A stretch of 34,893 nucleotides of DNA from an uncultured Woeseiaceae bacterium (GTDB lineage Bacteria > Pseudomonadota > Gammaproteobacteria > Steroidobacterales > Woeseiaceae): the NCBI GenBank assembly GCA_937944275.1, contig CALDZH010000026.1, positions 1-34,893 on the forward strand, read 5' to 3'. The position numbers and the translations under genes were made by a program. Every line of letters begins with the position of its first letter. The first letter of the stretch is position 1. The notes beneath the pieces were generated by a model that was not told the DNA's origin, searched no databases, and was given only the letters and a program-made list of their open reading frames with translations. This document shows positions 1 to 24,532 of this stretch, piece by piece.

Positions 1-60
1 GAAATTGGTGGCGGGTGGTGGCGCGTCAAAGACGGCCTCGAGTTCTGCCAGGCTCCTCAT
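1..60 (-). CDS. N-terminus of an unidentified protein truncated by the window edge (MRSLAELEAVFDAPPPATNF...)
   Basis: ATG at 60-58 overlaps the TGA of the upstream hdrB2-like gene (ATGA overlap); reading frame stays open to position 1. Too short to assign. Confidence 0.45.
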   Translation of the reverse strand, partial: MRSLAELEAVFDAPPPATNF

Positions 61-989
61 CCGAGGCCTTTTTCCTTGAGAAACTTCATCGAGTCAGAGA
101 CGTTCTCGTGCACGCCGACTTTTTTCGCCTTGAGACCCAGGGCCATACCAAGCAACTGGGTGAAATAGAGGATCTTGATGTCGACCTTTTCGCCTAGCGT
201 CTTCTCAGCCCGAATCTGGTGCATTTCGAGCCCGGAGTGGCAGGTCGGGCATTCCGTCGCGATGACATCTGCGCCCGACAATTTGGCCGCTTTGAGGATA
301 TTCAGCACGAGCTTCGTCGAGGTGTCACTATCCGAAAGCGTGTGGGCGCCACCGCAGCATGCGGTCTTGAGCGGAAAATCAACGTTTTCAGCGCCAGCGG
401 CGGCCAGCAGATCATCCATGAAGTGCGGCTTGGACGTCGACTCACTGCCCGGTCCCTGATCTTTTTCGGGAAAGATATGGCGTGGCCGCGTGTACATGCA
501 GCCGTAGTAGTTCGCAACCTTGATGCCGCTCAGCGAATTCTTGACGCGCTCAGCCAGGCCTTCCTCGCCGATCGAATCCTTTATCCAGTCGAGCGCGTGA
601 ATGGTCTCGACCTGGCCGGACTCGTAAGTCTTGTGCCCCGCTTTCTTTGACAGGCGATCAACCACTTCGACGGATTCCTCGTCGTTCGCCAGATCGTATT
701 CAGCCTTCTTGAGGTTGTGATAACAGCCATTACATGGCGCCATGACAACATCCATATCCATCTCGTTCGCCGCGGTCGACATGACCCGCGATGACAGATA
801 CGTCTGGATTTTCGGGTCGATGTTCTTGACCTCCATCGCGCCGCAGCAATTCCAGTCCTTGACCTCGACGAGATCGAGACCGAGTTTCTTGCCCACAGCC
901 TTCGTGGAGCGATTGTAAGCGTGGCCGGTTCCCTCGAGCGCGCAGCCCGGATAGTAGGCGACCTTCTTGTATTTGTCTTTCGTAGTCAT
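57..989 (-). CDS. hdrB2: sHdr complex HdrB2-like subunit (two CCG-type Cys motifs)
   Basis: 310 aa; YYPGC, DWNCCGA, APCNGCY, YYGC, TACCGGAHT, TECPTCHSGLEMHQ motifs typical of HdrB; last in hdrC1-B1-A-hyp-C2-B2 order. Confidence 0.9.
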   Translation of the reverse strand: MTTKDKYKKVAYYPGCALEGTGHAYNRSTKAVGKKLGLDLVEVKDWNCCGAMEVKNIDPKIQTYLSSRVMSTAANEMDMDVVMAPCNGCYHNLKKAEYDLANDEESVEVVDRLSKKAGHKTYESGQVETIHALDWIKDSIGEEGLAERVKNSLSGIKVANYYGCMYTRPRHIFPEKDQGPGSESTSKPHFMDDLLAAAGAENVDFPLKTACCGGAHTLSDSDTSTKLVLNILKAAKLSGADVIATECPTCHSGLEMHQIRAEKTLGEKVDIKILYFTQLLGMALGLKAKKVGVHENVSDSMKFLKEKGLG

Positions 990-1000
990 CAGGTTCCTCG

Positions 1001-1768
1001 TCAGGCAGCCACGTCTTGCTTGGCCGTTTCAACCAGTTCGGCAAGACTCAGTGCCTGCGCCTGTTTCTCTTCTTGTTCGTCGATGTATTCCTCGAGCGCC
1101 GCCGATGCCCTCGACCAGTCGCTGGTCCTTGGTGCGAACAGGGTCGCAAGACCCATGCGCGTCAGCAGGCTGACAGGCAGGCCCTTCAGCATGCGCTTGA
1201 CCATTTCAACCATCCACGGCTGCATGAGCGCTTGTCCGGTTCTGGAGAAGAAGCGTCGTATAGTTCGGCTTTCTTCGATCTTGCCTGTCTTGACAATCTG
1301 CTCTGTGAAAACCTCGTCAAAATGCATCGAGGGCGATTTTGTCGTGTGCCCCTTTTTCTCGAGCCAGTGCGCGGTCGCTTTCATAACACCCTCGGGGAAC
1401 ACGTCGCGAGGACAGGCATACGTGCACTTGTTGCACGATACGCATTGCCAGATGATGTCTTTGTCGCGCAGCAATTCCGACTCATAGCCCATGCGGATAA
1501 GGTAGATCCAGTAGCGCGGGTTGAAGTCGGGGTTGATCGCATTGACCGTGCACGAGTTGGTGCAGGAGCCACACTGCCAGCAGCGATGAATGTGTTCGCC
1601 ACCCGGCAACGCCGCGATCTCTTCTTCCATGCTTTCGTTGTAATCCTTAACAACCCGGGTCTCAATGAACGTGCTCCAGTGGCCGGACACGTCGACACCG
1701 TCGAGAACCAGCTCATCGTGCGTGGTGAGATTCTCCGGGCGAATCAGCGATTTTTCATGAATGGGCAT
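1001..1768 (-). CDS. hdrC2: sHdr complex HdrC2-like 4Fe-4S ferredoxin subunit
   Basis: 255 aa; CWQCGSCTNSC and CVSCNKCTYACP 4Fe-4S motifs; adjacent to hdrB2-like gene. Confidence 0.88.
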   Translation of the reverse strand: MPIHEKSLIRPENLTTHDELVLDGVDVSGHWSTFIETRVVKDYNESMEEEIAALPGGEHIHRCWQCGSCTNSCTVNAINPDFNPRYWIYLIRMGYESELLRDKDIIWQCVSCNKCTYACPRDVFPEGVMKATAHWLEKKGHTTKSPSMHFDEVFTEQIVKTGKIEESRTIRRFFSRTGQALMQPWMVEMVKRMLKGLPVSLLTRMGLATLFAPRTSDWSRASAALEEYIDEQEEKQAQALSLAELVETAKQDVAA

Positions 1769-1780
1769 TCAGGTTTCCCG

Positions 1781-2626
1781 TTAGTTCAGCTTGGTGCTGT
1801 CATCAAGAACGAAAGCCTCGCCATTGATGGCCTTCAGACGAGTTCTGCCGTCACCCGGCTGGACCCCGTCCAGGCCAAGCAGGCGACGTGTGTGTTGCAT
1901 GGGATCTTCCGGTGCCGTGAAATCGGCGCGCAGGTAGCTGCCGCCCTGTTCGCAAATGTACTGCGCGTAAATCTGTGCACACAGCACATCAACGTAGAAC
2001 AGGACATCGCGGAAGATGCCATTTTCGCTCAGGAACTGACTAAGCTCCTCTCGCAGCATGATGTAGGTACCGTACCCATCGGCTACGGGTATCGTAATGT
2101 GATCGACGTTGTCACCGTGCCAGATCTCGCGAATGACGCCTGTGTTGGACTTCGCATCCCAAACCCAGCGATTCATGAGCGGCACGCGCTCAGGATCGGC
2201 ATTGTGCAGGAGTTCGACCGCGAGATCCTTCACCCAGCGATGCTTTTTGTCTGTCGGGAAACGACCGCAGAAACGGCTTATGCGGTTCTCGATGTGCTCG
2301 GCGTCATCAAAAAGCTCGACAATGCCCTCGCGCACGTCAACAAATGCATCCTCATTAAGCCACGCGCCGATACGGCGGCGTACAGTCGACATGAACGTGC
2401 AAAGACCTTTAAAGGTTTCGAGATCGAGTTCGGCAACATTGTTTTCGACGAGTGCCTGCTGGAACACCGCGCTCTTCAGTTTCACGGCATCGACGTAGCG
2501 TTCAATTCCGCCAAGCTCTTCGCTGCCATTGACCATGGCCTGGAAACCGGCCCGAATCGCAGGACCGTGAAGGTCGAGCACAGGGCGCTCCAACTCAAGC
2601 GGTTTCATTGCGGACCGGGTTGCCAT
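1781..2626 (-). CDS. Conserved hypothetical protein of the sHdr operon ('hyp')
   Basis: 281 aa without recognisable catalytic motif; lies between hdrA and hdrC2, the position of the conserved hyp gene in sHdr clusters. Confidence 0.8.
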   Translation of the reverse strand: MATRSAMKPLELERPVLDLHGPAIRAGFQAMVNGSEELGGIERYVDAVKLKSAVFQQALVENNVAELDLETFKGLCTFMSTVRRRIGAWLNEDAFVDVREGIVELFDDAEHIENRISRFCGRFPTDKKHRWVKDLAVELLHNADPERVPLMNRWVWDAKSNTGVIREIWHGDNVDHITIPVADGYGTYIMLREELSQFLSENGIFRDVLFYVDVLCAQIYAQYICEQGGSYLRADFTAPEDPMQHTRRLLGLDGVQPGDGRTRLKAINGEAFVLDDSTKLN

Positions 2627-2639
2627 CAGTACGCGCGGC

Positions 2640-3683
2640 TTACGCCGACTTCAGATTCTTCGCGTTGGAAAGCACTGCCATGGCGCAGGCATGCCCTTGT
2701 GCGATCGAATCGTCGATGGTCTCCGGACCCGTCGCCGAACCAGCAACGTAAATACCGGGCCGAGACGTTTCGCCCATCGCGCCGTAGCGATGCGCGACGT
2801 CGATGTAGCCGTGTTCTTCCAGGTCTACGCCGAATGTCTCCGAAATCGCGGGATTCTCGACATTGGGATCCATGCCTATAGCATGCACAACCATATCGAA
2901 CGGAATCGTGATCGGGCGCTTGACCAGCGTATCTTCGCCTTTGACGATTAGCTTCTCGCCATCGGACGTCACTTCGGCGATACGTGCCTTGATGTATTTG
3001 ACTTTGAACTCTTCCTGGCTCTTCCAGTAATACTTCGTCTCGTACAGTCCGAAAGTACGGATATCCATGTAGTAGATGTACACATGGCAATCAGGCAACT
3101 CTTCACGAATTTCCATCGCCATATTCGACGATACGGTGCAGCAAATTTTCGAGCACCACTCGCGGCCAATCTGGCGATCACGCGAGCCAACGCAGAGAAG
3201 AATCGCGACACGTTTCGGCTTGCGGCCATCGGACGGGCAACGCACACCGTCGCCTGACGAGATCATCTGCTCGACCTGCGTAGTCGTGACGACGTCCGGG
3301 TAAGTGCCGAAACCCCATTCAGGCTTGTTGACCGAATCAAAATGCGTGAAGCCACTGCAGAGTATGACCGCCTCGGCTTCGACAGCGTCGCCATTGGACA
3401 GCTTGGCTGTGAAATCGCCCGGCGTACCGTCAAAATCCGTGACGGTTGCGCCCGTTACAACTGAGACACCGGCTTCATCCTCGACGCGTTTGACCATGCC
3501 ACCGATCGCATCTTTCGCCCACTCGCCCGTAGGCACGAGCTTGGCGTAGCCGGACAAAATCGGCGCACCGCCAAGTTTGTCTTCTTTCTCGACGATGACA
3601 CACTCCTTGCCAACCGAGGCAAGACTGTGAGCTGCGGCCAAACCGGCAGGTCCGCCGCCAATAACTAGAACAGGTTTACTCAT
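2640..3683 (-). CDS. hdrA: sHdr complex HdrA-like FAD/4Fe-4S flavoprotein
   Basis: 347 aa; N-terminal VIGGGPAGLAAAHSLA FAD-binding motif, LLCVGSRD...WCSKICC Cys cluster, C-terminal IYVAGSATGPETIDDSI; single FAD domain size fits sHdrA. Confidence 0.9.
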   Translation of the reverse strand: MSKPVLVIGGGPAGLAAAHSLASVGKECVIVEKEDKLGGAPILSGYAKLVPTGEWAKDAIGGMVKRVEDEAGVSVVTGATVTDFDGTPGDFTAKLSNGDAVEAEAVILCSGFTHFDSVNKPEWGFGTYPDVVTTTQVEQMISSGDGVRCPSDGRKPKRVAILLCVGSRDRQIGREWCSKICCTVSSNMAMEIREELPDCHVYIYYMDIRTFGLYETKYYWKSQEEFKVKYIKARIAEVTSDGEKLIVKGEDTLVKRPITIPFDMVVHAIGMDPNVENPAISETFGVDLEEHGYIDVAHRYGAMGETSRPGIYVAGSATGPETIDDSIAQGHACAMAVLSNAKNLKSA

Positions 3684-3692
3684 TTTTATTGC

Positions 3693-5072
3693 CTATGTCT
3701 CTTGGCCCTTATTCTCTATGGCTTTGAAGCCTGGGCCCGATGTAATCATCAAACGCGGGTCGTAAAGGGTCTCGCCCCTGCCCGCTTCCACGTCCTTCAG
3801 GTACAACTCGAACTCTGCTTTTTTCGCCTGCCAGTCGATGCCCAGCTTTTCCATCAGTTGCTCCGTCGGCGAAGCATGCCAGTGCGATTGCACAATCTTG
3901 TAGGGATGCGCGCCACAAACCAGGGCCGCGAACTGGATGTCGGCAAGTACCGGCAGCTCCACCGGTTTACCGACTGCTGCGCCGATCCACTGATTCTTAT
4001 CAAGCGTCGTTATGCAGCCCGTGTCGTGGCCAACCATCATGTCAGCGCGCGCCTCTTCCTGCGCTACCCGCAACTTGCGGTCAATGGCAAACGAACGCGT
4101 GAATTCGCGTTCTGAAATGATGTGGCGGAAACCAAAACCACAGCAGTCGTACCAGGTCGAGTAGTCGATGACCTGCGTACCCAGCGTTTCCAGCACGCCC
4201 GTAGTAACAGCAACGCGATTGCCTTCGAGAATATCGTCATCGTAAATGGCGTCCTCGGGAACCATTTTGTAGACATGACATGCCGGATGCACCGTGGCGC
4301 GAATGTTGCTGCAATCGATGACCTGGTGTTCCTTAATGCGATCGCGCATCACGTGCACCCATTCCGAATAATGCACAACCTCTTCCGGAATCAGGAGTTT
4401 GCCGTCAACGAGACGGCCGAGCTTGCCCAGAATAGTCTTGACGCGTTCGCGTAGCTTCGCTGAGTGCAACAGGTAACCACGTACTTCCTTGTAGTTACCG
4501 AACGACGTGCCGCAATGCACCAGCGGGTAGAAGTAGCCGTCCGGCAACCCCTGCGCTTTCGCGGAGACGTAGGCTTGATGGAAGTTCCGCAGGAATACAG
4601 CCGCCAGGCTCTCGATGTTGCCGATGCCCGAACCGTGGTAGTTCCATGCCGTACATGAGGTCTGGTCAGTCTCATCAAGGTACTTGATGTCCATCTTGTT
4701 CATAAGCCACAAGAGGGATGCGGGGTAACCCGGAATGTTGCCGCACTGGCCGCAGGACTTGTGATGCCAGAGCTGCGTCGTCGGGATCTTCTTGTCCCAG
4801 CCATACAGGGTCTTGACCGTAACCGGTGCGTGCTCGTCCGTGACCCGATGCACGACGATTTCGCCGTCTTTCTCGAGTTCCCACATGGCGTCGCGCACGT
4901 CCTCAACGCGATCCTTGTTTGTCAGCATCGAGCGCTTGTTGACAATTTGCTCAACCCAGACTGTTGCTACCTGGGCATCTTTCTCTGAGAGATTTGCGTC
5001 CGTCCATTCGGCGCCATGGCCAGTAAAACGCTCACCGCCGTTGTTGTCACCGTTACCGTTACCTGTCGTCAT
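3693..5072 (-). CDS. hdrB1: sHdr complex HdrB1-like subunit
   Basis: 459 aa; HPACH...WYDCCGFGF...GCITTLDKNQ CCG-type motif; between hdrC1 and hdrA. Confidence 0.87.
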   Translation of the reverse strand: MTTGNGNGDNNGGERFTGHGAEWTDANLSEKDAQVATVWVEQIVNKRSMLTNKDRVEDVRDAMWELEKDGEIVVHRVTDEHAPVTVKTLYGWDKKIPTTQLWHHKSCGQCGNIPGYPASLLWLMNKMDIKYLDETDQTSCTAWNYHGSGIGNIESLAAVFLRNFHQAYVSAKAQGLPDGYFYPLVHCGTSFGNYKEVRGYLLHSAKLRERVKTILGKLGRLVDGKLLIPEEVVHYSEWVHVMRDRIKEHQVIDCSNIRATVHPACHVYKMVPEDAIYDDDILEGNRVAVTTGVLETLGTQVIDYSTWYDCCGFGFRHIISEREFTRSFAIDRKLRVAQEEARADMMVGHDTGCITTLDKNQWIGAAVGKPVELPVLADIQFAALVCGAHPYKIVQSHWHASPTEQLMEKLGIDWQAKKAEFELYLKDVEAGRGETLYDPRLMITSGPGFKAIENKGQET

Positions 5073-5092
5073 AATTCATTCACCTCAATCGG

Positions 5093-5839
5093 TCAGTCGT
5101 CGTCCTGTTCATCCATCCAATCCTCATAGTCATCACGTTTTTCATCCATAATGTCGAGAATTACGTCGAACAGGTTTTCGTCGATGGTTTCAAGACTGTC
5201 GAGCACGCCTGTCTCTTCCCAGATCGTGTACAACTCAACCGATGTCTTGAGATTTACTTCCCACGCTGTCTTGGTTGTGTGCAGTGTGGGCATGGGGATG
5301 GCTTTGCGCAGAGTTGCCAGTGGAGCGTCAACCTTGGAGACATTCGGCCCCCAGTCCGCAAAGCCTTCGGGATTGATCATGTCGGGTGACAGTTGGTTAC
5401 CCGTCGAGATGAGCTTCAGCATGACCCGGCTGAACGGACGCAGCACGCTCTTCGCGGACTCCATGCCGTGCTTAATGGCGGTCTCGCGCATGAGCATGAC
5501 CAGGCCACCGGGGGAATTGCCAAAGGGGCAGCGTGCCGCACACGTGTAACACTGTGCGCACGACCAGATCTTCTCCTGCATCGCATCGTAGATGCCTTCG
5601 AGATTCTCGGTCCAAAGCAGCTGCACAATCTCGCGCGGGCTGAAATCATAGTAATGCGCCGCCGGGCACGTTGCCGTGCAAATGCCACAGTTCAGGCAAC
5701 CGTTGAGCTCATGGTCGAACCTGAGGTCGCCCTGAATGTCCTGGAAGATTTCCTCCAGTTGTTCACGTTCAACAGGGAGCGCGTCCGATACCGGATCACC
5801 AATGAATTCCTGGATTCGGGACGTTGAGGAATGGGACAT
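5093..5839 (-). CDS. hdrC1: sHdr complex HdrC1-like 4Fe-4S ferredoxin subunit
   Basis: 248 aa; CLNCGICTATCP and CAQCYTCAARCP motifs; acidic C-terminus. Confidence 0.88.
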   Translation of the reverse strand: MSHSSTSRIQEFIGDPVSDALPVEREQLEEIFQDIQGDLRFDHELNGCLNCGICTATCPAAHYYDFSPREIVQLLWTENLEGIYDAMQEKIWSCAQCYTCAARCPFGNSPGGLVMLMRETAIKHGMESAKSVLRPFSRVMLKLISTGNQLSPDMINPEGFADWGPNVSKVDAPLATLRKAIPMPTLHTTKTAWEVNLKTSVELYTIWEETGVLDSLETIDENLFDVILDIMDEKRDDYEDWMDEQDDD

Positions 5840-5858: not shown

Positions 5859-6236
5859 TTAGTAAGACAGAACCCTGCAGTCACCTTCCATGACTTCTTC
5901 GATGAGGTGAGCACCGCCAACGATGCCTTCACACTCGGGAATCAGATCGTCCTTGGTCATATCGAACAGATCGAGATTTGGTGAACAGCAGTAGAACTTG
6001 GCGCCAGCCTCGTGTGCATCCTGGATGAAGCTGTAAACGGATTTCGGTGAGCCTTCCTTGACAAAAAGCTTCTCGGCCACGCCCTTTTTCATGAGCCGGC
6101 CCGAGGTTGCCGTACAAATCACGTCAACTTCGTAGTCCATCGCGGCCGCGACCGTTGCCTGGAAAATGGGTGCGCCGAGCTCCTCGCCATTCCGCGGGTC
6201 AGTATTCGCCATAACAATGATGAGTTTTTCTGCCAT
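5859..6236 (-). CDS. DsrE-family sulfurtransferase-like protein (possibly DsrE3C type)
   Basis: 125 aa; DsrE-like fold pattern (LIIVMANTDPRNGEELGAPIFQATVAAAMDYEVDVI), adjacent Cys83-Cys84 (KFYCCSPNLDLF); directly upstream of hdrC1. Confidence 0.8.
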   Translation of the reverse strand: MAEKLIIVMANTDPRNGEELGAPIFQATVAAAMDYEVDVICTATSGRLMKKGVAEKLFVKEGSPKSVYSFIQDAHEAGAKFYCCSPNLDLFDMTKDDLIPECEGIVGGAHLIEEVMEGDCRVLSY

Positions 6237-6288: not shown

Positions 6289-7086
6289 CTAAATTACTTG
6301 TGCGTCCAATTCCCCTGCACTCTCCGCCGCTTTTGGCGAGGACATCAGGGACGTGCATTGCACAAGGCCAGTCATTATCGGCACCAGCTGATCCTCGAGG
6401 ACGGTCTGTAGCGCACGTAATTTCTCGAGTTGCTCCGCCGTGTCGGTGGGCACTTCTTCAAACTCCATTATCAGGTCTTCGACCATGCCCAGTTTTATGC
6501 CCGGATTGCCCGAAAAACCAAAAGCATTTTCTCCAACTTGCCAGACTGCGGGCCGGTCGAGATTATCGGTTGCCAACACCGTTGCATGAGCTGGCAATAC
6601 GGGCCAGTCACGCATATAGACAACCTGGTTGAAGTGCTGTGGCAGATACCCGTTGAGCGCATCGTCGTGCGTGCGCGTCGCTGTCAGGATTTCAAACGTC
6701 AGGTCGCGCGCCTCGACACCGCCACCGGCCGCGAGCGCCAGGATTTGAGCTCCAAGCCCGATGCCGACAACCGGCGTACCCTCTGCCAGCGTCTGCCGGG
6801 TCAGCTCGACTTCCTCAGCCAGCGTCGGCAGGTCGCGAGACCCCGCCGCGCCCCAGGGTCCTCCTCCGAGAAGGATCATGGCATCCGCGGGTACGTCGCT
6901 TGCCGGGAGTTTACCGGCGGCAAACGGCCGGAAATACTGGAAGCGGACGCGTCGGCCTTCGAGATGATCCTCCATGCGGCCGAGGTATTCACCGGCTGTA
7001 TGCTGAATCACGGCCACGACGTTCATCGGATCCGCCTCATTAGCGGCGAGAACGAATGCGTCGTCGTTGCTTTTGCACTCCGCCAC
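6289..7086 (-). CDS. Class-I glutamine-amidotransferase-like protein, probably non-catalytic
   Basis: 265 aa; ILLGGGPWGA and VVGIGLGAQILALAAGG match GATase-1 oxyanion/nucleophile-elbow regions, but Cys is replaced by Gly and the usual HPE is replaced by NPG. Confidence 0.8.
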   Translation of the reverse strand: MAECKSNDDAFVLAANEADPMNVVAVIQHTAGEYLGRMEDHLEGRRVRFQYFRPFAAGKLPASDVPADAMILLGGGPWGAAGSRDLPTLAEEVELTRQTLAEGTPVVGIGLGAQILALAAGGGVEARDLTFEILTATRTHDDALNGYLPQHFNQVVYMRDWPVLPAHATVLATDNLDRPAVWQVGENAFGFSGNPGIKLGMVEDLIMEFEEVPTDTAEQLEKLRALQTVLEDQLVPIMTGLVQCTSLMSSPKAAESAGELDAQVI

Positions 7087-7088
7087 TC

Positions 7089-8165
7089 TCAGGCCCCTTG
7101 TCGTTTCGCGAGCGCGTCGTTGATCGACGCGATGAAGTCGTCTGCCGTGACGCTGAGTGTATCGATGCTCGCCTTGGCAAAAAACTTCCTGATGGTTCGC
7201 TCGACGTCCTCGAGCCGGGTTCCAATCAACGTCGCCTCGAGATCGAAAATGGTCCGCGGCGGAGTAACGAAGAAGTCGCCTGTCAACAGGGCACGTTGCA
7301 ATATGCCCAGTGTCGGTCCTTCGAGCTTCACGAATGCATTAATAGTCCCGCCTGCGCCTGTGTGTGTGCCTTCAAGTAGCTTGTCACCGCGGCCGGGATT
7401 GTCGATATCGGCGACAAACTCGTCGGTACCGATTTCTTCATCGTAATGCTCTTGGGCAAGGGCTTCCTCAGCTTCAGTAATCTCGCCAGGTTCGGCCGAG
7501 ATACCCAGGACATCGGTGAACCCCTTGACCAGCGCGGCCTTGATTGTCTCTACATCAGGCAGATCATCACCGAGCAGCTCCTTGAGCGTGACGACGCGCT
7601 GCTCCGCGGTATCCAGGTTGTGTTTCGCTATCTTGGCGGCCGGGATATTCAGTGCGTTGACCATCTGCGCCGGGTTCATGTCTACCAGAACGGTGCCCTG
7701 GTATATCAGGACCTCGCCGTCGAAAAAGCCGCCCGTACCGCTGATCTTGCGTCCATCAACCTCGATATCGTTGCGTGGCCGAAACTTGGCATCGACGCCG
7801 AGTTCTCCCAGGCCGGCGGCTGCCGCATTACATATCTCGCGCGCAAGACATGGCAACTTTGAAATGCCCAGTGACTTGCGGTGGAAGACCAGCTCCCACC
7901 CTAGTTGTCCTTCGTCAAGGTAAATCGCACCACCGCCGGTGATGCGACGGACAGTGCCGATACCGTTTGCAGCGCAATAGTCGAGGTTGATCTCGTGCGA
8001 CAGATCCTGGTGACGACCGAGAAGAGCCGTCGGCGGGAATCGCAAAAAGCGGATGGTGTCCGGTACCTTGTTCTGCTGCCTGAGCTCGATCAGCGCCATA
8101 TCGAACGCAATGTTCGACCGCCCCTCTCGAACGCCCGTGTCAATTAAGCGAAACGGCTTGCTCAT
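7089..8165 (-). CDS. slpl(AB): Lipoate-protein ligase, sLpl(AB)-like (fused LplA- and LplB-type domains)
   Basis: 358 aa; VRRITGGGAIYLDEGQLGWELVF, RNDIEVDGRKISGTGGFF (catalytic Lys motif) and a C-terminal accessory domain; beside LipS-like radical-SAM genes and sHdr. Confidence 0.85.
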   Translation of the reverse strand: MSKPFRLIDTGVREGRSNIAFDMALIELRQQNKVPDTIRFLRFPPTALLGRHQDLSHEINLDYCAANGIGTVRRITGGGAIYLDEGQLGWELVFHRKSLGISKLPCLAREICNAAAAGLGELGVDAKFRPRNDIEVDGRKISGTGGFFDGEVLIYQGTVLVDMNPAQMVNALNIPAAKIAKHNLDTAEQRVVTLKELLGDDLPDVETIKAALVKGFTDVLGISAEPGEITEAEEALAQEHYDEEIGTDEFVADIDNPGRGDKLLEGTHTGAGGTINAFVKLEGPTLGILQRALLTGDFFVTPPRTIFDLEATLIGTRLEDVERTIRKFFAKASIDTLSVTADDFIASINDALAKRQGA

Positions 8166-8176
8166 AAACCTGCTTC

Positions 8177-9472
8177 TTATTTAACCGCAACCGGAATGTC
8201 CAGTTGCTTGCGGATCTTCTTGATGTCTTTCTTTTTCGGTTGGAAGGGATAGCTGGCAATATTGCTCGGCGGCGAATCGCCGTACGGTCGATCGCAGGCC
8301 GAAATGTCGTCCTGGAATTTACCGGGGCAGCCCGATGTCCGAAACGCAATTCCTGCGTCGATGACATCCGCAAGCTCCGCGTCTGAAATTCCGTAGCTCT
8401 TCACTCTGCCCTCGTCATCAAAGCTCATATGATCGACTCGCACGTCGCGATAATCGATCAGGTAACGTGCGAGCTGCACGCGGCGCCATTGGTCTCGCGG
8501 CGTCGCCGGCAGATGATCCATGAGGGAACCGTCTTCCGGGAAGAAGCAGAACATGTGGCTGTGGCCACCGAGATCGACGAGGTCCTGTACAAGATTCAAC
8601 ACCTCGTACTCTGTCTCTCCCATGCCGACGATGATGTGCGCACCGAATTTTTGCGGACCGAAAATATCCTTCGCGTCGAGCATGATCTCCCAGTATTTCG
8701 TCCACTTGTGGGGCGATTGCACGCCTTTGCCGCGCGTTCTGTCGAATAGCTCGGGCGTCGCCGCATCGAGCGCCACGGTAAAGATGTCGGCGCCGAGATC
8801 TTTCGTGCGCTGCACGTCGTCACGCGTCATGGTCGTCGGGTTTGACAGGATGGAGACCGGAATTGCACCCGGATCAATCTTGTCGGTCCATTGCTCCAGC
8901 ACGGTAAATGTGTCCTGCTCCGACCGTGGGTGCGTGATCATCGAGATACACATGCGATGGAACGGGCTGTTCTCCGGGTCCTTCGCGACGATGTCGACAA
9001 TGTCGGCCATCGGCACCGCCGGCCAGTCCACACGGATGAAGTTGCGATCGGCGTAGTCACGCTCCGCTTCGCGATGACGCGCCAGGCCACAATAGGCGCA
9101 GTTGGCCCGGCAACCTTCCGGGTACGTAAGCAACAGATTCAGACAACGTGTGCACTCGCAACGGTACATTCGACCGCCCATGATCCCGAGCGTAATTGCC
9201 GCCGCATTGGAAAGTTGCACGTATTCCGGCGACTTCATGTGCGGTGCGAGGATATTGTTGTTGGGCAAGTACACGCCTTCAGGCGGAATATCATTGGCCT
9301 TGACATGCTTGCCATTGCGCCGATCGATCGGCGTCTTGCTCGGCAATCGCGGCTCCATCACATCGTAGGGATTGTAGTCGGGAGAATCGGGGACAGTCAC
9401 CGTAACTCCGGAGGAGTTACTGTGACTGTCCCCTTTTGTGGCCGGTGACTTTTTGTGCTCTATGCAACCCAT
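8177..9472 (-). CDS. lipS2: Radical SAM protein, BioB-like, LipS1/LipS2-type sulfur insertion enzyme (tentatively LipS2)
   Basis: 431 aa; radical-SAM CRANCAYC (9090-9113) plus upstream CECTRC motif; beside sLpl-like gene. AGGA ribosome-binding-like sequence precedes ATG 9472; alternative ATG at 9358. LipS1 versus LipS2 designation is uncertain. Confidence 0.75.
   Translation of the reverse strand: MGCIEHKKSPATKGDSHSNSSGVTVTVPDSPDYNPYDVMEPRLPSKTPIDRRNGKHVKANDIPPEGVYLPNNNILAPHMKSPEYVQLSNAAAITLGIMGGRMYRCECTRCLNLLLTYPEGCRANCAYCGLARHREAERDYADRNFIRVDWPAVPMADIVDIVAKDPENSPFHRMCISMITHPRSEQDTFTVLEQWTDKIDPGAIPVSILSNPTTMTRDDVQRTKDLGADIFTVALDAATPELFDRTRGKGVQSPHKWTKYWEIMLDAKDIFGPQKFGAHIIVGMGETEYEVLNLVQDLVDLGGHSHMFCFFPEDGSLMDHLPATPRDQWRRVQLARYLIDYRDVRVDHMSFDDEGRVKSYGISDAELADVIDAGIAFRTSGCPGKFQDDISACDRPYGDSPPSNIASYPFQPKKKDIKKIRKQLDIPVAVK
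9389..9433. repeat. REP/REPIN-like palindrome (21-bp arms, 3-nt loop, 20/21 paired)
   Basis: GGGGACAGTCACCGTAACTCC-GGA-GGAGTTACTGTGACTGTCCCC; one C/T mismatch (9401 versus 9421). GGGGACAG-type ends resemble RAYT-associated repeats. Confidence 0.75.
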
Positions 9473-9497
9473 TAGTTTCGATCCTGGTTCGTTCGTT

Positions 9498-10535
9498 TTA
9501 CGCTGCGAATGACGATTGCAGTCGTATCTTTAAATCGCTGCCAACCTTGATCGAGCAACAGGAGTGCGCTTGCTCGAACGGCCGGCCAATTGTATGTGCG
9601 ACGGATACGGCACCGTCGGCGGGAAAGGCAATACCATCCAGCCCGGCCATAATCGCGTAGGCATCAGTCACGCGCTTGTGCATGCCTGGTGGCCGCGCAC
9701 AGCCCAGCAGGACCTGCTGGTCCGGTATCCGCTCGCGTGCCTCGAGGAAGATCCGGCCGACGTCCGACGTCTCCGGCGTTACAAAAGTACCTGGTTTGGC
9801 ATAAAACGGCATGATGACGACCAGCACCAACGCGTTAACGTCGTAGCGACTGACCATATCAAGCGCATATTCCTCGCCGACAATTTGGCCGTAATGCAAG
9901 CCGATGACGATGTGCGGCGTGACTTGCATCGACGTCGTGCACAAAGCCGCCAGCGTTTCCTCAAAGTCATCGACCGGACGCTGCAGTTTGTATACCTGCT
10001 CGATAGTCTCTTGCGCGCCGATTACATCCATCATGACGTTGTCGACACCCGCGGACTCCATTTCCTTTGCGCGCCGTTCATCAAGGAGCGCCGTATGCAC
10101 GGCGATCTTGAGTTCAGGAAAATCACGCTTCAGGCCCTCGACGATCGGCATGTAGCGGCCATACGAAATCTCGTTCTTCCGATTTGAGCCGCCAGACAGG
10201 AGAAAGCCGCTCAACTGCTCAGTCTCTATGAGACGCCGCACTTTCTCATCAAGCATCGCGGGATTGGTCGCGGGGATCATCGGCTCGAGGATCTTCTTCT
10301 GGCAGTGGTCGCAATTGAGCCCGCACTCGCCCGCCGTAATCGAAAATGCAGGGAAACTGTTCTTGCCGCAACCTTCCAGCTCGCTGCTTTCATACTCCTT
10401 GAACGTCGGCGTGGAGAATCGGATCGGCCGTGAGATCGCCACATCAGAGCGACGTTCGAAGTCGGTCACAAGGCCAGCATCGAACTCTGCGTCCTCGAGA
10501 TCTTCTATGCGAGAAAGTGCGTCAAGCCAGCTCAT
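9498..10535 (-). CDS. lipS1: Radical SAM protein, LipS1/LipS2-type sulfur insertion enzyme (tentatively LipS1)
   Basis: 345 aa; CGLNCDHC radical-SAM motif (10302-10325), FLLSGGSNRKNEISYG; C-terminal SCCS; adjacent to second radical SAM and lipoate ligase. Confidence 0.75.
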   Translation of the reverse strand: MSWLDALSRIEDLEDAEFDAGLVTDFERRSDVAISRPIRFSTPTFKEYESSELEGCGKNSFPAFSITAGECGLNCDHCQKKILEPMIPATNPAMLDEKVRRLIETEQLSGFLLSGGSNRKNEISYGRYMPIVEGLKRDFPELKIAVHTALLDERRAKEMESAGVDNVMMDVIGAQETIEQVYKLQRPVDDFEETLAALCTTSMQVTPHIVIGLHYGQIVGEEYALDMVSRYDVNALVLVVIMPFYAKPGTFVTPETSDVGRIFLEARERIPDQQVLLGCARPPGMHKRVTDAYAIMAGLDGIAFPADGAVSVAHTIGRPFEQAHSCCSIKVGSDLKIRLQSSFAA

Positions 10536-10547
10536 TCATCGTTTCCC

Positions 10548-11645
10548 TTATGCCGCCGGTACCAGCGATAATATCTCTTCGCGGATCGGTCCGGTATGCC
10601 GGATATCCGCGAGCGTCGTCAACCATGACTCATCGACATCTTCTTCATCGACAAGATCACATTCCATTGCGCTAAGGTATTCAACCGCATCTTGCGGCAG
10701 CTGCTCCGGGAATTCCCGGCCGCAGATACGACCCCACATGCCTGCCCAGTATCTGGTAACGGTCCATGGATTATAGCCACCACCTCCAAGGATTACCGTC
10801 GGCAGGCCCTTTTCCACCAGGCTGTCGACCGCATCCCAGAGGCTCACGTTCGACAGTTCCATTTTTGACAACGGGTCGCCGGCCAGGCAGTCCGCCCCGC
10901 AGCACAGAACCAGTGCATCAGCTCGAACCTCATCAACCAGCGGCAGCACTGCATTCTCAATGAGATAGTCGAATTCACTGTCATTGATCCCGCGTGGTAC
11001 AGACAGGTTATAGGCGCCCGCTTCCGGCCTTGAATGCGCGCCACTGAACGGCCAACGCTTGGCCTCGTGGATCGACAACGTCGTCACCCGGCGCTCTTCA
11101 AAGAATGCGTCTTCGACACCATCACCATGGTGCGCATCCAGATCGATATACAGCACGCTTTCGCTGCCATGCTTGAGCAGCGTCAGAATCGCAAATACCG
11201 GATCGTTGAAATAACAGAAACCGCTCGCGCGATCCGTGCGGCCATGGTGCGTGCCGCCTGAGGGATGAAAAACAACCCGGCCCTGGGTGGCGAGCTCGGC
11301 CGACAGGATCGAACCGCCCACCGTCATCGACGCACGCTCAAACAAACCTGGAAAGAAGGGGTTTTCGAACGTACCAACCTGGTAGCGCTCTCGCACATCC
11401 GGTTCAACCTTACCTGTGGCGTTTGCGTATTGCAGTGCTCGTACATACGCCCGATCATGGAACTCGAGTAACTGCTCGATAGTCGCGGGCTGGCTCTCGC
11501 GAAACCTCGTTTCGTCCAACCAGCCAAGCATCTGCAACAGATCGTTAACAGCCGCATGGCGAACGATATTTAGTGGGTGATTGAAACCAAATGCGGGTTT
11601 CCGGTAGATGTCACTACCAACAAAAAAAGGTTCGGCATCGGGCAT
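10548..11645 (-). CDS. Histone-deacetylase/AcuC-family deacylase
   Basis: 365 aa; GGTHHGRTDRASGFCYFNDP, LYIDLDAHHGDGV, CCGADCLAGDPL and GGGGYNP motifs: metal ligands and catalytic residues appear intact. Confidence 0.92.
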   Translation of the reverse strand: MPDAEPFFVGSDIYRKPAFGFNHPLNIVRHAAVNDLLQMLGWLDETRFRESQPATIEQLLEFHDRAYVRALQYANATGKVEPDVRERYQVGTFENPFFPGLFERASMTVGGSILSAELATQGRVVFHPSGGTHHGRTDRASGFCYFNDPVFAILTLLKHGSESVLYIDLDAHHGDGVEDAFFEERRVTTLSIHEAKRWPFSGAHSRPEAGAYNLSVPRGINDSEFDYLIENAVLPLVDEVRADALVLCCGADCLAGDPLSKMELSNVSLWDAVDSLVEKGLPTVILGGGGYNPWTVTRYWAGMWGRICGREFPEQLPQDAVEYLSAMECDLVDEEDVDESWLTTLADIRHTGPIREEILSLVPAA

Positions 11646-13271: not shown

Positions 13272-15116
13272 CTAGTCGACAATGTGGTATACGGGAGCCT
13301 TCTCCATCGCCCACTCGCCCGTTTCCTGGTGATACTGCGACAACGTGAAGCAGTGCCAGTCATTGTCATCCAGCTTCATGTGATCGCCGCGATAGTAGTA
13401 GCCCGGCCAGCGCGTCTCTTCACGGAACATCGTGTGATGTGTTACGGATTCAGACGCCAGCAAGCGATGCTTCAATTCCCACGCACGTTGCAACTGGTGC
13501 AGATCCTCGGCTCCGATCTTGTCCAGGTCTTCGCGCAAAGTGCCCAGCAGTTCGAGGCCGCGCGTGAGCAAAGGCTCGTTGGTCATGTAGCCGGTGCTGA
13601 TGCCGCCAACATATTCATCCATGATCTTCTCGAGACGCTGCAGACCCTGAATCGGCAGGAGGTAGCTCGGCGATACGGTGCCCGCGACGATTTCGTTGCG
13701 GCCAATCTCGTAATTCTCGAGCGGCTTGTACACCTCTTTCCTGAGGTTCTCGTACTCGTCCTCGCTGACCTGCGGTGCATCCTTGCCCATATCCTTGATG
13801 TAATTGACCGCAGCCTTGGCAGCGATGCGGCCTTCCGTGAACGAACCCGAGGAGAACTTATGGGCCGTGCCACCGATGGTGTCACCGGCACCAAACAAGC
13901 CGTCGACAGTCATCATGCGGTTGTAGCCCCACTGGTACTCATCAGGCGCGTAGTCTTCCGGCCCACTCGCCCAAGCACCTGAACACGTGGCATGCGAACC
14001 CATGACGTAAGGTTCGGACGTCGTCAGCTCGGGGTTCGTGTATTTGGGATCGATATCCTGCGCCGCCCAGACAACGGCCTGCCCGACCGTCATTCCAAGG
14101 AAGTTCTCCCAGCCGACCGTTTCCTTGTGCGGATCCTGGAAAGCTTCTTTCGTGACCATGCGGATAGGTCCACGGCCAGCCTTCAACTCTTCGAGGAACG
14201 CATGGTTTCTGAGGCAGGTCGGTACAGGATGACGATCAACGTAATCCCCGACCAGTGCCTTGGTATTTTCGTACCAGGTCGATTCGTATTCGTTGCCGTA
14301 AGCGTTTTCCGTGTACGTCTTCAGATGCAGGAAGTAGGCACCAACCGGCCCGTAACCATCCTTGAAGCGCGTCAGGACGATACGGTTCTCCATTTGCGTC
14401 ATCTTGGCGCCGACCTGGATCGGTAACGCGTACGCGGAGGCGCTGCTCCACGGTGCGTACCATGTACGGCCCATGCCCTCGCCAACTGCGCGTGGTTTGT
14501 AGATGTGCGAGGCGCCGCCCGCGGCCACGATCACGGCCTTCGCACGGAACACATAGAAATCACCCGTGCGGACGTTGAAGCCAACGGCGCCAGCCACCCG
14601 GCCTTCCTTTTCCTTGTCCATAAGAAGGTGCGTCACCATGATGCGGTTGTACACCTTGGTGGCAGCCTTACGCGCGGCTTCGGCGACGATCGGCTTGTAG
14701 CTCTCGCCATGAATCATGATCTGCCACTTGCCTTCGCGCACGTAGCGACCCGTTTCCGGGTCTTTCATCATCGGCAGACCCCACTCCTCGAACTTGTGCA
14801 CTGAGGAATCAACATGCCGGGCAATGTCATAGCCCAGGTCCTCGCGCACAAGCCCCATGAGGTCATTGCGAGCATAGCGGACATGATCCTCGGGCTGATT
14901 CTCGTCCCACTGCATGCCCATGTAGCAGTTGATCGCGTACAAGCCCTGGGCGACCGCGCCGCTGCGCTCGATATTCGCTTTTTCTACGCAGACAATATTC
15001 AGGTCACGGCCCCAGTGCCGCGCTTCGTAAGTGGCGCCGCAACCAGCCATGCCACCGCCAATGACAAGAACGTCGGAATCCACAAAATGTGTTTTTCTTC
15101 GAGAGAACAGGCCCAT
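13272..15116 (-). CDS. aprA: Adenylylsulfate (APS) reductase alpha subunit
   Basis: 614 aa; DVLVIGGGMAGCGATYEARHWG FAD motif, full-length AprA features (RAKAVIVAAGGASHIYKPRAVGEGMGRTWYAPW); TAATG overlap with aprB. Confidence 0.95.
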   Translation of the reverse strand: MGLFSRRKTHFVDSDVLVIGGGMAGCGATYEARHWGRDLNIVCVEKANIERSGAVAQGLYAINCYMGMQWDENQPEDHVRYARNDLMGLVREDLGYDIARHVDSSVHKFEEWGLPMMKDPETGRYVREGKWQIMIHGESYKPIVAEAARKAATKVYNRIMVTHLLMDKEKEGRVAGAVGFNVRTGDFYVFRAKAVIVAAGGASHIYKPRAVGEGMGRTWYAPWSSASAYALPIQVGAKMTQMENRIVLTRFKDGYGPVGAYFLHLKTYTENAYGNEYESTWYENTKALVGDYVDRHPVPTCLRNHAFLEELKAGRGPIRMVTKEAFQDPHKETVGWENFLGMTVGQAVVWAAQDIDPKYTNPELTTSEPYVMGSHATCSGAWASGPEDYAPDEYQWGYNRMMTVDGLFGAGDTIGGTAHKFSSGSFTEGRIAAKAAVNYIKDMGKDAPQVSEDEYENLRKEVYKPLENYEIGRNEIVAGTVSPSYLLPIQGLQRLEKIMDEYVGGISTGYMTNEPLLTRGLELLGTLREDLDKIGAEDLHQLQRAWELKHRLLASESVTHHTMFREETRWPGYYYRGDHMKLDDNDWHCFTLSQYHQETGEWAMEKAPVYHIVD

Positions 15117-15580
15117 TAGACGACTCCCTTCTTGAGTTGGTCCGGAGTCAGCGCGGGTAACCCACCATCAATATTCAGTACATCCGGTTCGTGTGCGAGC
15201 TCCTGGCTCTTGTAGTCTTCCTCGCTCGGCGGCGGCAGTTCAGCCGGCGATGGAATCGTTCCCCACTTGGTCGTCCGGATCGGGGATTCGAAGTTTTTCT
15301 CATGGCCATTCCGGAACTTGACCTTCCAGGAGATGGTGCCCTTGTCTTCCTCTCGAAGCACTCGGACACTGTGGCCCAGAGGCGCAAAGTCGGCATAACC
15401 GCGAGCATCGATTGCATTCTGCGGACAGGCCTTAACGCAGGAGTAGCACTCCCAGCACATGTTCGGTTCGATGTTGTAGGCACGGCGATAGGTCTTATCG
15501 ATGTGCATGATGTCGGACGGGCAGATGTCAACGCAATGTCCGCAACCGTCGCAACGTGTCATATAAACAAATGTCGGCAT
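15116..15580 (-). CDS. aprB: APS reductase beta subunit (2x 4Fe-4S)
   Basis: 154 aa; CDGCGHCVDICP and CWECYSCVKACP; AprB-type C-terminal tail. Confidence 0.95.
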   Translation of the reverse strand: MPTFVYMTRCDGCGHCVDICPSDIMHIDKTYRRAYNIEPNMCWECYSCVKACPQNAIDARGYADFAPLGHSVRVLREEDKGTISWKVKFRNGHEKNFESPIRTTKWGTIPSPAELPPPSEEDYKSQELAHEPDVLNIDGGLPALTPDQLKKGVV

Positions 15581-15595
15581 GGTATTGCGTTCCTT

Positions 15596-16378
15596 CTAAT
15601 AGTTACGGGGCTGACGATCGACTTTGCCAAATTGCTCGGGCTGGTCGGCCGGCGCCGGCAGGTTGTTTCTCGTGCCATTGGCAGCCGATAAGCGTTTTTC
15701 GAAAGCAGCAGCAGGCTTGAAGAACATGTGCGCAAACTTGGACCAGGGCACAGAAACGAACAAGACCGTCGTGAAGATGATATGCAGCCAGAAGGCGATC
15801 ATCGTCCAGTCATGGCCCTTCGCCTGCAGGTAACCCCAAACCAGCGCGAACGTAGCGCTGCCAAGCAGCGAGAGAATGAACAGGTCCGCTTTCATGAGCC
15901 GGAACGGCGAGTTGCCCTCGGCGGCGACATCAACGCGAATGAAAAACCAGAACCAGTAGCCACCGACACAGACCATTGCCGCACCGAGCCACCAGAGTCG
16001 CGGCCAGATTGCGGGAGTTGCGACATCACTGGTCGGATAGAAGAACACCATTGTGGCGGTCGCCAGCGCAAACAGGATAAATCCGTACATTCCCAAAAGG
16101 TGCGCAATGCGTCGTTTCTGGTTGCAGAATTCACCCGAGAGTGCAACGTCAACGACAGCCGTCTTGACGGCCATCGATATCTTTTCCCCGCCACCGACCT
16201 TGGTGCCTGCGGCTTTGGAGCGGGCCATATTGGCGCGAAAATACTGGGCGCTTTTCTTATGCAGGACGTCGTATATCGTGCCGAGCGCGACCAAAATGAT
16301 CATGACGACGATGTACGTCTGCATGAAATACGGTGCTATCAACGCCGACAGCTCGGCGAAGGGATTGCTCGTGAACAT
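15596..16378 (-). CDS. aprM: AprM-like membrane anchor of APS reductase
   Basis: 260 aa, multiple hydrophobic helices, directly upstream of aprBA; GGGGAG ribosome-binding site before ATG. Confidence 0.85.
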   Translation of the reverse strand: MFTSNPFAELSALIAPYFMQTYIVVMIILVALGTIYDVLHKKSAQYFRANMARSKAAGTKVGGGEKISMAVKTAVVDVALSGEFCNQKRRIAHLLGMYGFILFALATATMVFFYPTSDVATPAIWPRLWWLGAAMVCVGGYWFWFFIRVDVAAEGNSPFRLMKADLFILSLLGSATFALVWGYLQAKGHDWTMIAFWLHIIFTTVLFVSVPWSKFAHMFFKPAAAFEKRLSAANGTRNNLPAPADQPEQFGKVDRQPRNY

Positions 16379-16410
16379 TACATCTCCCCAACGAAGGTTC
16401 GGGCCACCTT

Positions 16411-16432
16411 AGAATATTCTATTTTTCTAATT
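16411..16432. promoter_or_regulatory. Candidate regulatory element, copy B (AGAATATTCTATTTTTCTAATT) upstream of aprM
   Basis: 18/22 identical to 11652-11673; contains the perfect 10-bp palindrome AGAATATTCT; lies 33-54 nt upstream of the aprM ATG. Confidence 0.4.
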
Positions 16433-16498
16433 TTCTGAGAATACTTTGTAATTCTTTCCGGGTTGTTCTGTCAATTCGAGATACTACTGATTGCCCGC

Positions 16499-17662
16499 CT
16501 AGCCGTAAAATTCGCGCAGCACGGCGACCACCTCATCGCGGCTGAACTCGGGCGGAATCGACTCTCCGTTGGCGAACATCTCGCGCAGTCGCGTGCCGGA
16601 GATTGCCAGGCGATCCTCGGCAGAATGCGGGCAAGTCTTGCCAGTAGCCATGCCGTTGCATCGGTAGCAGAAGAACGTGATGTCGATCTTGAGAGGCTCG
16701 GTTTTCAGGCTGCCCGCCGCCAGTGTGTCAAAGATATGATGCGCATCGAAAGGCCCGTAGTAATCTCCGACACCCGCATGGTCGCGGCCCACGACCAGGT
16801 GCGAACAACCGAAATTCTGGCGCAGGACGGCGTGCAGCAAGGCCTCGCGTGGGCCCGCATACCGCATCTCGATGGGGTAGCCTGCCTGCACGATCGTGCC
16901 GTCGACGAAATAATGCTCGACGAGCGTATCGATTGCCCTGACCCTCACCTCGGCCGGGATATCGCCCGGCTTGAGTGCACCCAGCACCTGGTGAATCAGC
17001 ACGCCATCGCAGATCTCGATGGCGATCTTGGCCAGGTATTCGTGGCTGCGATGCATCGGGTTGCGCGTCTGGAACGCCGCCACCTTCGACCAACCCTTTG
17101 CCAGAAAAAGCGCCCGCGTTTCGGCCGGACGATGATAGAGACCGGCATAGGTCTCGGGGAAATGCCCTTCGGATAGTGTGCGGACCGGTCCACCGAGATT
17201 GATCGCCCCCTGCGACATGACTTTTTCAACGCCAGGATGCGCCGTGTCCGCGGTGCGGAAAACATGTGAACACTCGAATTCGCGGTCTATCGCGTATTTT
17301 TCCTCGACTGTAAGAATCCCGAGCAGCTCGTCGGTGTCGCCGTCAACGAGCGCGACATCCTCACCGATACCGATACCGTCTGCGAGGTCCTGCGCGCACG
17401 AAAGCGTGATCGGGATTGGCCAGAACAGCCCATCCGCGAGCGTCATGTGCTCACAGCAGCCGCGCCAGTCCGCCTCGCGCATGAATCCGTCGAGTGGCGT
17501 GTACGCACCCATGCCGAGCATGAACAGATCCGACACTTCGCGGCTGGACAATGGAACGCGTTTGAGATGCGCGGCCCGCTTTGCCTCTTCTGCCCTTTCC
17601 GTTTCAGGCAAAAGGAGCGGCATTAAAGAGTCCGAGCCATGTGGAGGAACGAGATTCAGCAT
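16499..17662 (-). CDS. sat: ATP sulfurylase (dissimilatory type)
   Basis: 387 aa from ATG at 17662 (MLNLVPPHG); [13 protein letters not shown] and [21 protein letters not shown] motifs. The supplied ORF start 17998 overlaps yeiH and is judged an overextension. Confidence 0.95.
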
Positions 17663-17670
17663 TTTCTTGA

Positions 17671-18663
17671 CTACCTCAGGAATGTGATGCCGGCAATGAC
17701 GAGCGCAGCGAGTAAGAGCGTCTGTATCACCATGACGCCGATCGGCGCCGGGCCGACATCGGCGAGCGCTTTCAGGGAGGTTTTTACACCCAGCGCAGCT
17801 ACCGCCGTCAGCAGGCACCAGCTGGACACCGGCGTCAACGCAGAATTCACGTCCGGCGAAACCCAACCCATACTGTTGACGATTACGAGGACAACGAAAG
17901 CCACGAGAAACCATGGCAGCAGCGGTCGTTTGTCGGGTGACTCGGCGCGGCTGCGATGGGTTATCAGCGAGATCATCAATACGACCGGCACCAGGCAAGC
18001 GACACGAATGAGCTTCACCAGCGTGGATATTTCGCCCGTTTGATCGGAGATGATGTATCCGGCACCGACGACCTGCGCCACATCATGGATCGTCGCCCCG
18101 AGGAAAATACCTGCGGTCGCGTTGTCATACTGCAGGTAGGTGACGAAAACCGGGTAGGCGACCATGGCTACTGTGCTCAGGGCGGTAACGCCGGCGACAG
18201 TCATGATCGTGTTGCGTTCATGATCCTTGTGCGACGGCAGTACGGACGCAATCGCAAGCGCTGCCGACGCGCCACAGATGGCAACCGCGCCAGCCGATAG
18301 CACGGACTGGTCACCTTTCAGGCCGAATGCGCGCCCGATCAGCCCACCAACGACAATGGTGGCCACGACGCTCGCCACGATGAGGGCAACGACCGGCCAG
18401 CCGAGTTCCGTCACGTCACCTGTCGTAATTCGCAGGCCGAGCAACGCGACCCCGAAACGAAGAATGTTGCGGCTCGCAAAGTAGATTCCTGCCGCGAAAC
18501 GTTCATCCTCGGTAAGAAAGTTGAACGCCATCCCAAACAGCAGCGCATACAACATCGCCGGACCACCGAGCTGGTCACTCACAAATCTCACAGCAAGCGC
18601 GATAGTTGCGCTCAGGAGTAAGCCGGGTATCGCCAGGCGTACCGTATCAATCGTTCTGGTCAT
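17671..18663 (-). CDS. yeiH: YeiH/UPF0324-family putative sulfate (or sulfite) exporter, membrane protein
   Basis: Polytopic protein with [21 protein letters not shown] and [19 protein letters not shown] motifs typical of the YeiH family; ATG at 18663 preferred over the TTG at 18687. Confidence 0.87.
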
Positions 18664-22795: not shown

Positions 22796-22821
22796 CAGAA
22801 TATTTGCGGGAGGAATACAGC

Positions 22822-23877: not shown

Positions 23878-23878
23878 C

Positions 23879-24532
23879 ATGGACCTTCTGGAATTCGCAA
23901 GAGGCCCCGCACTTCAGTGGGCCGCCTACATACTCGTCGCAGGTTCGATCTGGCGCATCGTCGGCATCCTCCTGCTTAAGGAAAAGTCAGACTTCTCCGA
24001 GCCACGCAAACGAGCAGGCCTGGGCTCTGCTCTGAAGGTGGTCTACACGCGCAGTTTTACAGCGCCACCGTTTGCAAAAGCAACTATGTACCCGAAGATG
24101 ATGGCTTATGTGCAGCATGTTGGCCTGTTCGCGGTCGTCTTCCTGTTCGTGCCGCACATCATGTTTTTCAAGGGATTCCTGGGATTCGAGTGGCCGGGAT
24201 TGCCGAATAGCGTCATCTACGTGTTCGGCGTCGCAGCGGTCGTGGCAAGCCTTGCTCTCCTGATCCGACGCGTAACGAGCCCGGTGCTAAGACTGATCTC
24301 GAACTTCGACGACTACTTCAGCGGTTTCGTTGCAATCCTGCCAATCGCGACGGGACTCCTGATCCCGGTGCGATTGGGGATTCGTTACGAGGACCTGCTC
24401 GCCATCCACATTCTCTCCGTCGTGCTCTTCATGATCTGGCTTCCTTTCGGCAAGTTGGGGCACGTCTTCCTCGTGTTCATAACACGTGGAACAACCGGAA
24501 TAGCGTTTGAACGCAGGGGGGCCAAGACATGA
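23879..24532 (+). CDS. isp1: Isp1-like cytochrome b-type membrane subunit
   Basis: Hydrophobic NarI/DsrM-like protein; ATG 23879 right after the hynS stop; between hynS and isp2. Confidence 0.88.
   Translation: MDLLEFARGPALQWAAYILVAGSIWRIVGILLLKEKSDFSEPRKRAGLGSALKVVYTRSFTAPPFAKATMYPKMMAYVQHVGLFAVVFLFVPHIMFFKGFLGFEWPGLPNSVIYVFGVAAVVASLALLIRRVTSPVLRLISNFDDYFSGFVAILPIATGLLIPVRLGIRYEDLLAIHILSVVLFMIWLPFGKLGHVFLVFITRGTTGIAFERRGAKT

Follow-up and report, generated by a model that had tools for sequence, protein, structure and literature searches.

Gene content of the locus

The window, which is the whole stretch of 34,893 nucleotides analyzed here, represents a contig from an uncultured Woeseiaceae bacterium. 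Its minus strand carries, in this order, a histone-deacetylase-like (HDAC-like) gene, lipS1, lipS2, slpl(AB), lipX, a dsrE-type gene, and the series shdrC1-B1-A-hyp-C2-B2 (Table 1). The gene under study is located 3' of slpl(AB) in the lipS1/lipS2/slpl cluster and 5' of dsrE and shdr, and is thus a lipX by position. It also groups with LipX from other sHdr clusters, which form one clade (support 100/99) when the long-branch relative L116 is set aside. This gene has already been named lipX in sHdr/LipS clusters, where its product is labelled a "putative glutamine amidotransferase" by Tanabe et al. (2023; PMC10332631).

Table 1. Features of the lip-shdr region of the window
Feature	Coordinates	Strand	Remarks
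shdr genes C1, B1, A, hyp, C2, B2	57..5839	minus	named by gene order, Fe-S motifs and synteny
DsrE-type sulfurtransferase (DsrE3C position)	5859..6236	minus	directly 3' of lipX; order as in H. denitrificans
lipX	6289..7086	minus	class-I GATase-fold protein, 265 aa, without catalytic triad
LipX residues 198-208 (KLGMVEDLIME)	6463..6495	minus	signature K198, D204, E208
AFGFSGNPG	6499..6525	minus	where the GFQFHPE strand is expected; H to N, E to G
YMRD	6607..6618	minus	where the W-H-x-D motif is fixed in canonical relatives
Degenerate nucleophile elbow GIGLGAQ	6745..6765	minus	G110 codon GGG (6757-6759) where Cys is expected
LipX residues 39-54 (EDHLEGRRVRFQYFRP)	6925..6972	minus	signature E39, E43, R45, F49, R53, P54
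sLpl(AB) lipoate:protein ligase	7089..8165	minus	its end is 2 bp before the lipX start
LipS2 lipoyl synthase subunit	8177..9472	minus	NF053743, 184.8 bits, under the curated cut-off of 270
LipS1 lipoyl synthase subunit	9498..10535	minus	NF053742, 193.5 bits, under the cut-off of 230
Histone-deacetylase-like amidohydrolase	10548..11645	minus	conserved in the cluster

Genomes, one for each species, were scanned with LipX motifs; of the 209 relatives returned, the best 80 were taken together with their flanks and organism names. In most of these 80 loci (best 80 of 209), the synteny sLpl-lipX-dsrE-shdr is found. An sLpl gene was detected in 74/80 and lies directly upstream of lipX on the same strand in 65, and a DsrE gene directly follows lipX in 64/74; both neighbor counts are held down by short contigs. 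In related loci, LbpA genes (ESGKWVGPAKS) are found 3' of shdrB2, and the contig of the window stops short of that point. No lipT (FAD oxidoreductase) is present among lipS1, lipS2, slpl, and lipX (window 7089-11645), whereas the clusters of H. denitrificans and Thioalkalivibrio contain one.

The HDAC-like gene heads the lip operon in 50/80 relatives (best 80 of 209), and several further genomes have it close to the LysR-linked Cys-less GAT gene described below. The metal site of its product looks intact because the segments DLDAHHGDG and GADCLAGD are present, and the protein is a candidate deacylase for LbpA-bound lipoyl or octanoyl groups. Elsewhere in the window, the look of the translations points to probable aprA, aprB, membrane-subunit, and sat genes (13272-18000) and to a probable [NiFe] hydrogenase (22804-27608), the latter together with Isp-type membrane and Fe-S subunits. 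The window is probably a dense lithotrophy island. Four MAG contigs that bear lip-sHdr clusters (L060, L061, L078, L102) are titled "Bordetella parapertussis" or "Klebsiella pneumoniae"; these titles look mislabelled.

The lipX product retains the fold and lacks the catalytic triad

The original prediction was of a GATase-like protein that has lost its Cys-His-Glu triad within an otherwise intact ORF. The lipX frame indeed runs uninterrupted from a GTG start at 7086 to 6289 and codes for 265 aa. Translation of the minus strand exactly reproduced both predicted replacements, the GGG codon (6757-6759) for the Cys in GIGLGAQ and the NPG (6507-6499) in AFGFSGNPG. In the alignment to class-I GATases, G110 corresponds to the Cys of GICLGAQ, and N194 and G196 correspond to the His and Glu of FH[LP]E. 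The window copy has the alpha/beta fold of a functional class-I GATase but neither a nucleophile Cys in a GxCxG elbow nor the catalytic His-x-Glu (HPE/HLE), which reads NPG. Active-site residues are thus gone from an otherwise conserved and selected fold, as in a pseudoenzyme.

The Pfam GATase match covers only residues 70-128 (E 1.2e-5), and the NCBIfam model PRK07053 matches the full-length protein with 76 bits, compared to a family cut-off of 250. Retention of the fold, likewise predicted, was borne out by the AF2 model (pLDDT 90.2, pTM 0.89), for which the top Foldseek matches in the PDB are all class-I GATases. The closest solved folds are 1o1y, 3m3p, gamma-glutamyl peptidase 1, 3l7n, and DnfC (8khs). 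In the AlphaFold models, strand 106-110 is followed by helix 111-119, which places residue 110 at the strand-to-helix turn, the geometry of a nucleophile elbow.

A comparison to six orthologues gave a dN/dS of 0.10-0.11 for lipX, a value that is approximate because dS is just over 1. The gene is kept under strong purifying selection.

An alternative nucleophile was sought and rejected. The only cysteines of the window copy are C4 in the disordered N-terminus and C244 in the C-terminal helix; neither is conserved in the family, and the core has none. Individual relatives have a single core Cys, with positions 99 and 133 the most frequent, but no such Cys is common to the family or located at the elbow.

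Extent of the loss among relatives

About 30 close orthologues from a first search for relatives all have GxG[LV]GA (one reads GLGTQ) and [NH]PG. The best 80 of the 209 scanned relatives are from Woeseiaceae, Burkholderiales, Acidiferrobacteraceae, Lysobacterales, Rhodospirillaceae, Kiloniellales, Robiginitomaculum, and other taxa. A set of 89 non-redundant LipX sequences from Gamma-, Beta-, and Alphaproteobacteria was compared at the triad positions. The nucleophile position is Gly in 87/89 and Glu in 2/89, with no Cys (0/89). The position of the HPE Glu is G in 87, A in one, and Q in one, so that Glu occurs in none. The His position is H in 63 and N in 26, and within this set N is confined to the Woeseiaceae group (genus) of the window. 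Profile searches of sampled genomes contributed further alphaproteobacterial LipX, which have Gly or Glu and no Cys at the Cys position; one of them (L154) likewise has N at the His position. The canonical paralogues and relatives, by comparison, have Cys, His, and Glu in 23/23 each, and paralogues from related genomes read GICLGAQ together with FH[LP]E. The scan with LipX motifs (best 80 of 209) could overlook orthologues with an intact triad; the search was therefore repeated with profiles, for which genomes were sampled from the phylum and from two classes, and also from the LipS2 side, and no Cys-bearing sequence fell inside the clade.

The predicted loss of the entire triad thus holds for the window copy. 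Most orthologues lack only Cys and Glu and still have the His (HPG), so that clade-wide loss, which the original prediction had proposed to check, applies to Cys and Glu and not to His. Because Cys and Glu are gone family-wide and most relatives read HPG, we consider the loss of Cys and Glu to be the founding change. The loss of His in NPG appears largely to be a local change in the genus of the window. An isolated variant is excluded by the same losses across the 89 non-redundant relatives. The reading as a pseudoenzyme has survived both findings that were named as able to overturn it, an orthologue with an intact triad and an alternative nucleophile.

Several lineages have Glu instead of Gly at the old nucleophile position (L143-L145, L111, L116), with elbows reading GVELGAV, GLELGAQ, and GIELGGQ; the change of Cys to either Gly or Glu recurs. 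L116 (L127:4873-5604, genome G149) combines GIELGGQ with FHPQVK. Its gene adjoins a DsrE2 gene, and the lipS1-sLpl-lipS2 cluster of that genome sits on a different contig.

A Cys-less sister family linked to LysR

A class-wide profile search revealed 21 gammaproteobacterial proteins (L164-L184; 105-150 bits) which are also devoid of the Cys (VxGxGxG[GA]) and whose genes are linked to a LysR regulator. They read FRPExKPGMxED, with Cys replaced by Gly, His by Arg, and the Glu retained. A profile-profile comparison to LipX gave a probability of 99.9 and an E-value of 5e-36 over 241 columns, with 29% identity. At the positions of R159 and D160 of LipX, the family has mostly N/H/P and G, respectively.

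In the loci examined, the genes form a module of LysR, the Cys-less GAT, a 125-aa protein, and an AI-2E-type transporter, which is located outside the lip operon. The 125-aa protein has no Pfam or NCBIfam match. On four contigs, an HDAC gene is found a few kb from the GAT gene, and LipS2/sLpl genes at 6-15 kb. The module of LysR, Cys-less GATase-like, 125-aa, and AI-2E-type transporter genes is represented by L193:8573-11719 and L208-L211, in genomes with LipS2 and sHdr.

In a tree of 79 sequences, computed with the triad columns left out, a single branch (support 97/88) separates all 23 Cys-bearing sequences from the Cys-less ones, and presence or absence of the Cys requires one change. As LipX and the LysR-linked family form one supported clade, a single ancestral loss of the Cys suffices. 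The branch of L116 is long and its placement within the Cys-less side is unsure.

The two Cys-less families share further changes. C110, W157, H158, Q180, and Q192 are fixed in canonical relatives and gone from both. E39, E43, R45, F49, R53, P54, P195, K198, D204, E208, and M248 are near-fixed in both and rare in canonical GATs. None of the triad positions is fixed across the clade (G/E for Cys, H/N/R for His, G/E/A/Q for Glu). Restricted to LipX are the gains R138, R159, and W78 and the retention of D160. Three active-site positions of LipX (110, 193, 196) are Gly, and for this reason the cavity should be wider.

Co-occurrence with LipS2 and sHdr

Of the 166 gammaproteobacterial genomes in a nested sample, 11 have LipS2 and 10 have a Cys-less GAT. 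Both occur in nine genomes, LipS2 only in two, the GAT only in one, and neither in 154 (Fisher p 2.6e-12, from a test that ignores shared ancestry). The two genomes with LipS2 and without the GAT (G1051, G1061) have no sHdrB1 match, and the single genome with the GAT and without LipS2 (G1119) has sHdrB1. Among the genomes with the LysR-linked family (n=21), LipS2 is present in 20/21 and sHdrB1 in 20/21; the one that lacks an sHdrB1 match has a completeness of 75%.

The association with LipS2 and sHdr is not absolute because two alphaproteobacterial genomes (G843, G929) code for divergent LipX-like proteins (L155, L156) and have neither LipS2 nor sHdrB1. These proteins have lost K198 and the ED motif, and a DsrE2 gene is located about 5 kb away. 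The Cys-less GAT goes with sHdr; we do not claim the converse, that sHdr is always accompanied by the GAT.

Proposed role of LipX

With a probability of about 60%, we consider lipX to code for a pseudoenzyme of the sHdr/LbpA cluster, which goes back to a single ancestral Cys loss, is maintained by purifying selection, and acts as a non-catalytic accessory factor. Class-I catalysis is not expected, as there is no nucleophile, no clade-wide acid/base pair, and no set of glutamine-site residues; LipX probably functions without catalysis. A non-catalytic partner role is suggested by the strong selection, by the slot next to the LbpA ligase gene and before shdr, and by the co-occurrence with sHdr even when unlinked. 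On these grounds, we favor a role of LipX as an accessory factor or adapter, either in the maturation of LbpA or in the function of sHdr. Scaffolding on LbpA or the lipoate enzymes, as originally suggested, would agree with the place of lipX in the operon and with its co-occurrence with sHdr/LipS. LbpA, sLpl, or sHdr may be the partner, and the tests single out no one of them.

According to this proposal, the ancestor of LipX would have lost its catalytic Cys once, together with the glutamine-site residues, and the Cys-less protein would then have been retained under strong purifying selection. While LbpA is lipoylated or used, a ligand or partner protein would be bound by the conserved charged residues E39, E43, R45, R53, K198, D204, and E208 and by the remodelled pocket, which is rich in Gly. 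A wider version, which we regard as tentative and lean against, would make the whole Cys-less clade (LipX and the LysR-linked family) an unrecognised component of the sHdr-LbpA system that has given up catalysis and is dedicated to handling LbpA or its lipoyl arm, as chaperone, adapter, or holder, wherever proteobacterial sHdr works, within or outside the operon.

LipX could instead be an enzyme of a new type, whose remodelled pocket (R159, D160, K198, and mostly H194) runs another reaction, for example on a lipoyl/octanoyl intermediate or adenylate. R159, D160, and K198 are near-invariant in LipX, which could signal a different chemistry, and H194 is retained in most LipX beyond the genus of the window. 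The conservation of R159 and D160, however, stops short of the sister family, which also has R in place of H194; for this reason, we treat a new activity only as a rival. Moreover, the group of the window itself has H194 replaced by N, and the residue that occupies the nucleophile position varies from Gly to Glu. We thus judge this alternative unlikely.

We find it improbable that LipX is a ligand-sensing or regulatory protein which binds glutamine, a nucleotide, or a sulfur/lipoate metabolite and so modulates the ligase or transcription. In the gammaproteobacterial loci examined, the sister gene does have LysR regulator and AI-2E-type transporter genes as neighbors, but no LysR gene adjoins lipX in the window, and the glutamine-site residues are gone in both Cys-less families. 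That LipX is an active glutamine amidotransferase, as the literature label has it (PMC10332631), agrees with the fold and the profile matches; as judged from the residues present, it is highly improbable, since Cys, the HPE Glu, and the glutamine-site WH/Q residues are absent in all LipX examined. A decaying pseudogene or an assembly error, which might be suspected in a draft genome that is 62.9% complete and consists of 193 contigs, is refuted by the same residues in dozens of independent assemblies, the intact ORF, and the dN/dS of ~0.1.

The LbpA lipoylation pathway is a recent addition, and the function of LipX in its operon rests on annotation alone. Because the Cys is lost in all relatives examined, its annotation as a "putative glutamine amidotransferase" is probably incorrect. 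The family-wide absence of the catalytic machinery overturns it and shifts the focus from amide chemistry to binding. For a pseudoenzyme that binds a partner, the signature provides targets for mutation (E39, R45, R53, K198, D204, E208), and the parallel Cys-less family with its GAT gene outside the lip operon provides an independent test set. LipX also offers a clear-cut example of how an amidotransferase fold has probably lost catalysis once and stayed in an energy pathway.

Comparison with known systems

The gene, the operon, and the fold are known; we found no description of the family-wide triad loss, the signature residues, the single origin, or the unlinked sister family. A literature search that reached few subscription papers found no report of triad loss in LipX, including in the available parts of PMC10332631, PMC10451225, and PMC11582611. 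According to the respective sources, slpl(AB) and lipX overlap in Hyphomicrobium denitrificans (PMC10332631), lipX of that species is Hden_0687 and adjoins dsrE3C (PMC10451225), LipX is counted among the cofactor-assembling enzymes (PMC11582611), and it is labelled GATase1 (PMC6067878). With an E. coli helper plasmid that carries lipS1-slpl-lipT-lipS2, and thus no lipX, the final insertion of sulfur was of low efficiency (PMC10332631). LipX from H. denitrificans and from other sHdr/LipS clusters occupies the same slot between slpl(AB) and dsrE3C/shdr and carries the same label; Hden_0687 is likened to the window protein by gene order and family label, and is not by name among the compared sequences.

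The stand-alone class-I GATases PRK07053, TM1158 (1o1y), 3m3p, and DnfC share with LipX the full-length fold, the N-terminal motif QH..E.LG, and the C-terminal helix. They retain Cys, WHxD, GFQFH, and E, which LipX lacks, and LipX has gained E39, E43, R45, R53, K198, D204, and E208. The LysR-linked family resembles LipX in the replacement of Cys by Gly, in the common signature residues, and in its occurrence in sHdr/LipS genomes. It differs by the change of His to Arg, the retained Glu, the loss of D160, and its LysR-GAT-125aa-AI2E module outside the lip operon. A GATase domain has also been retained after loss of the catalytic Cys in the carbamoyl-phosphate synthetase I of tetrapods (PMC7657897). 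There, the GATase is a domain of a synthase that has switched to free ammonia, whereas LipX is a stand-alone protein without a known synthase partner.
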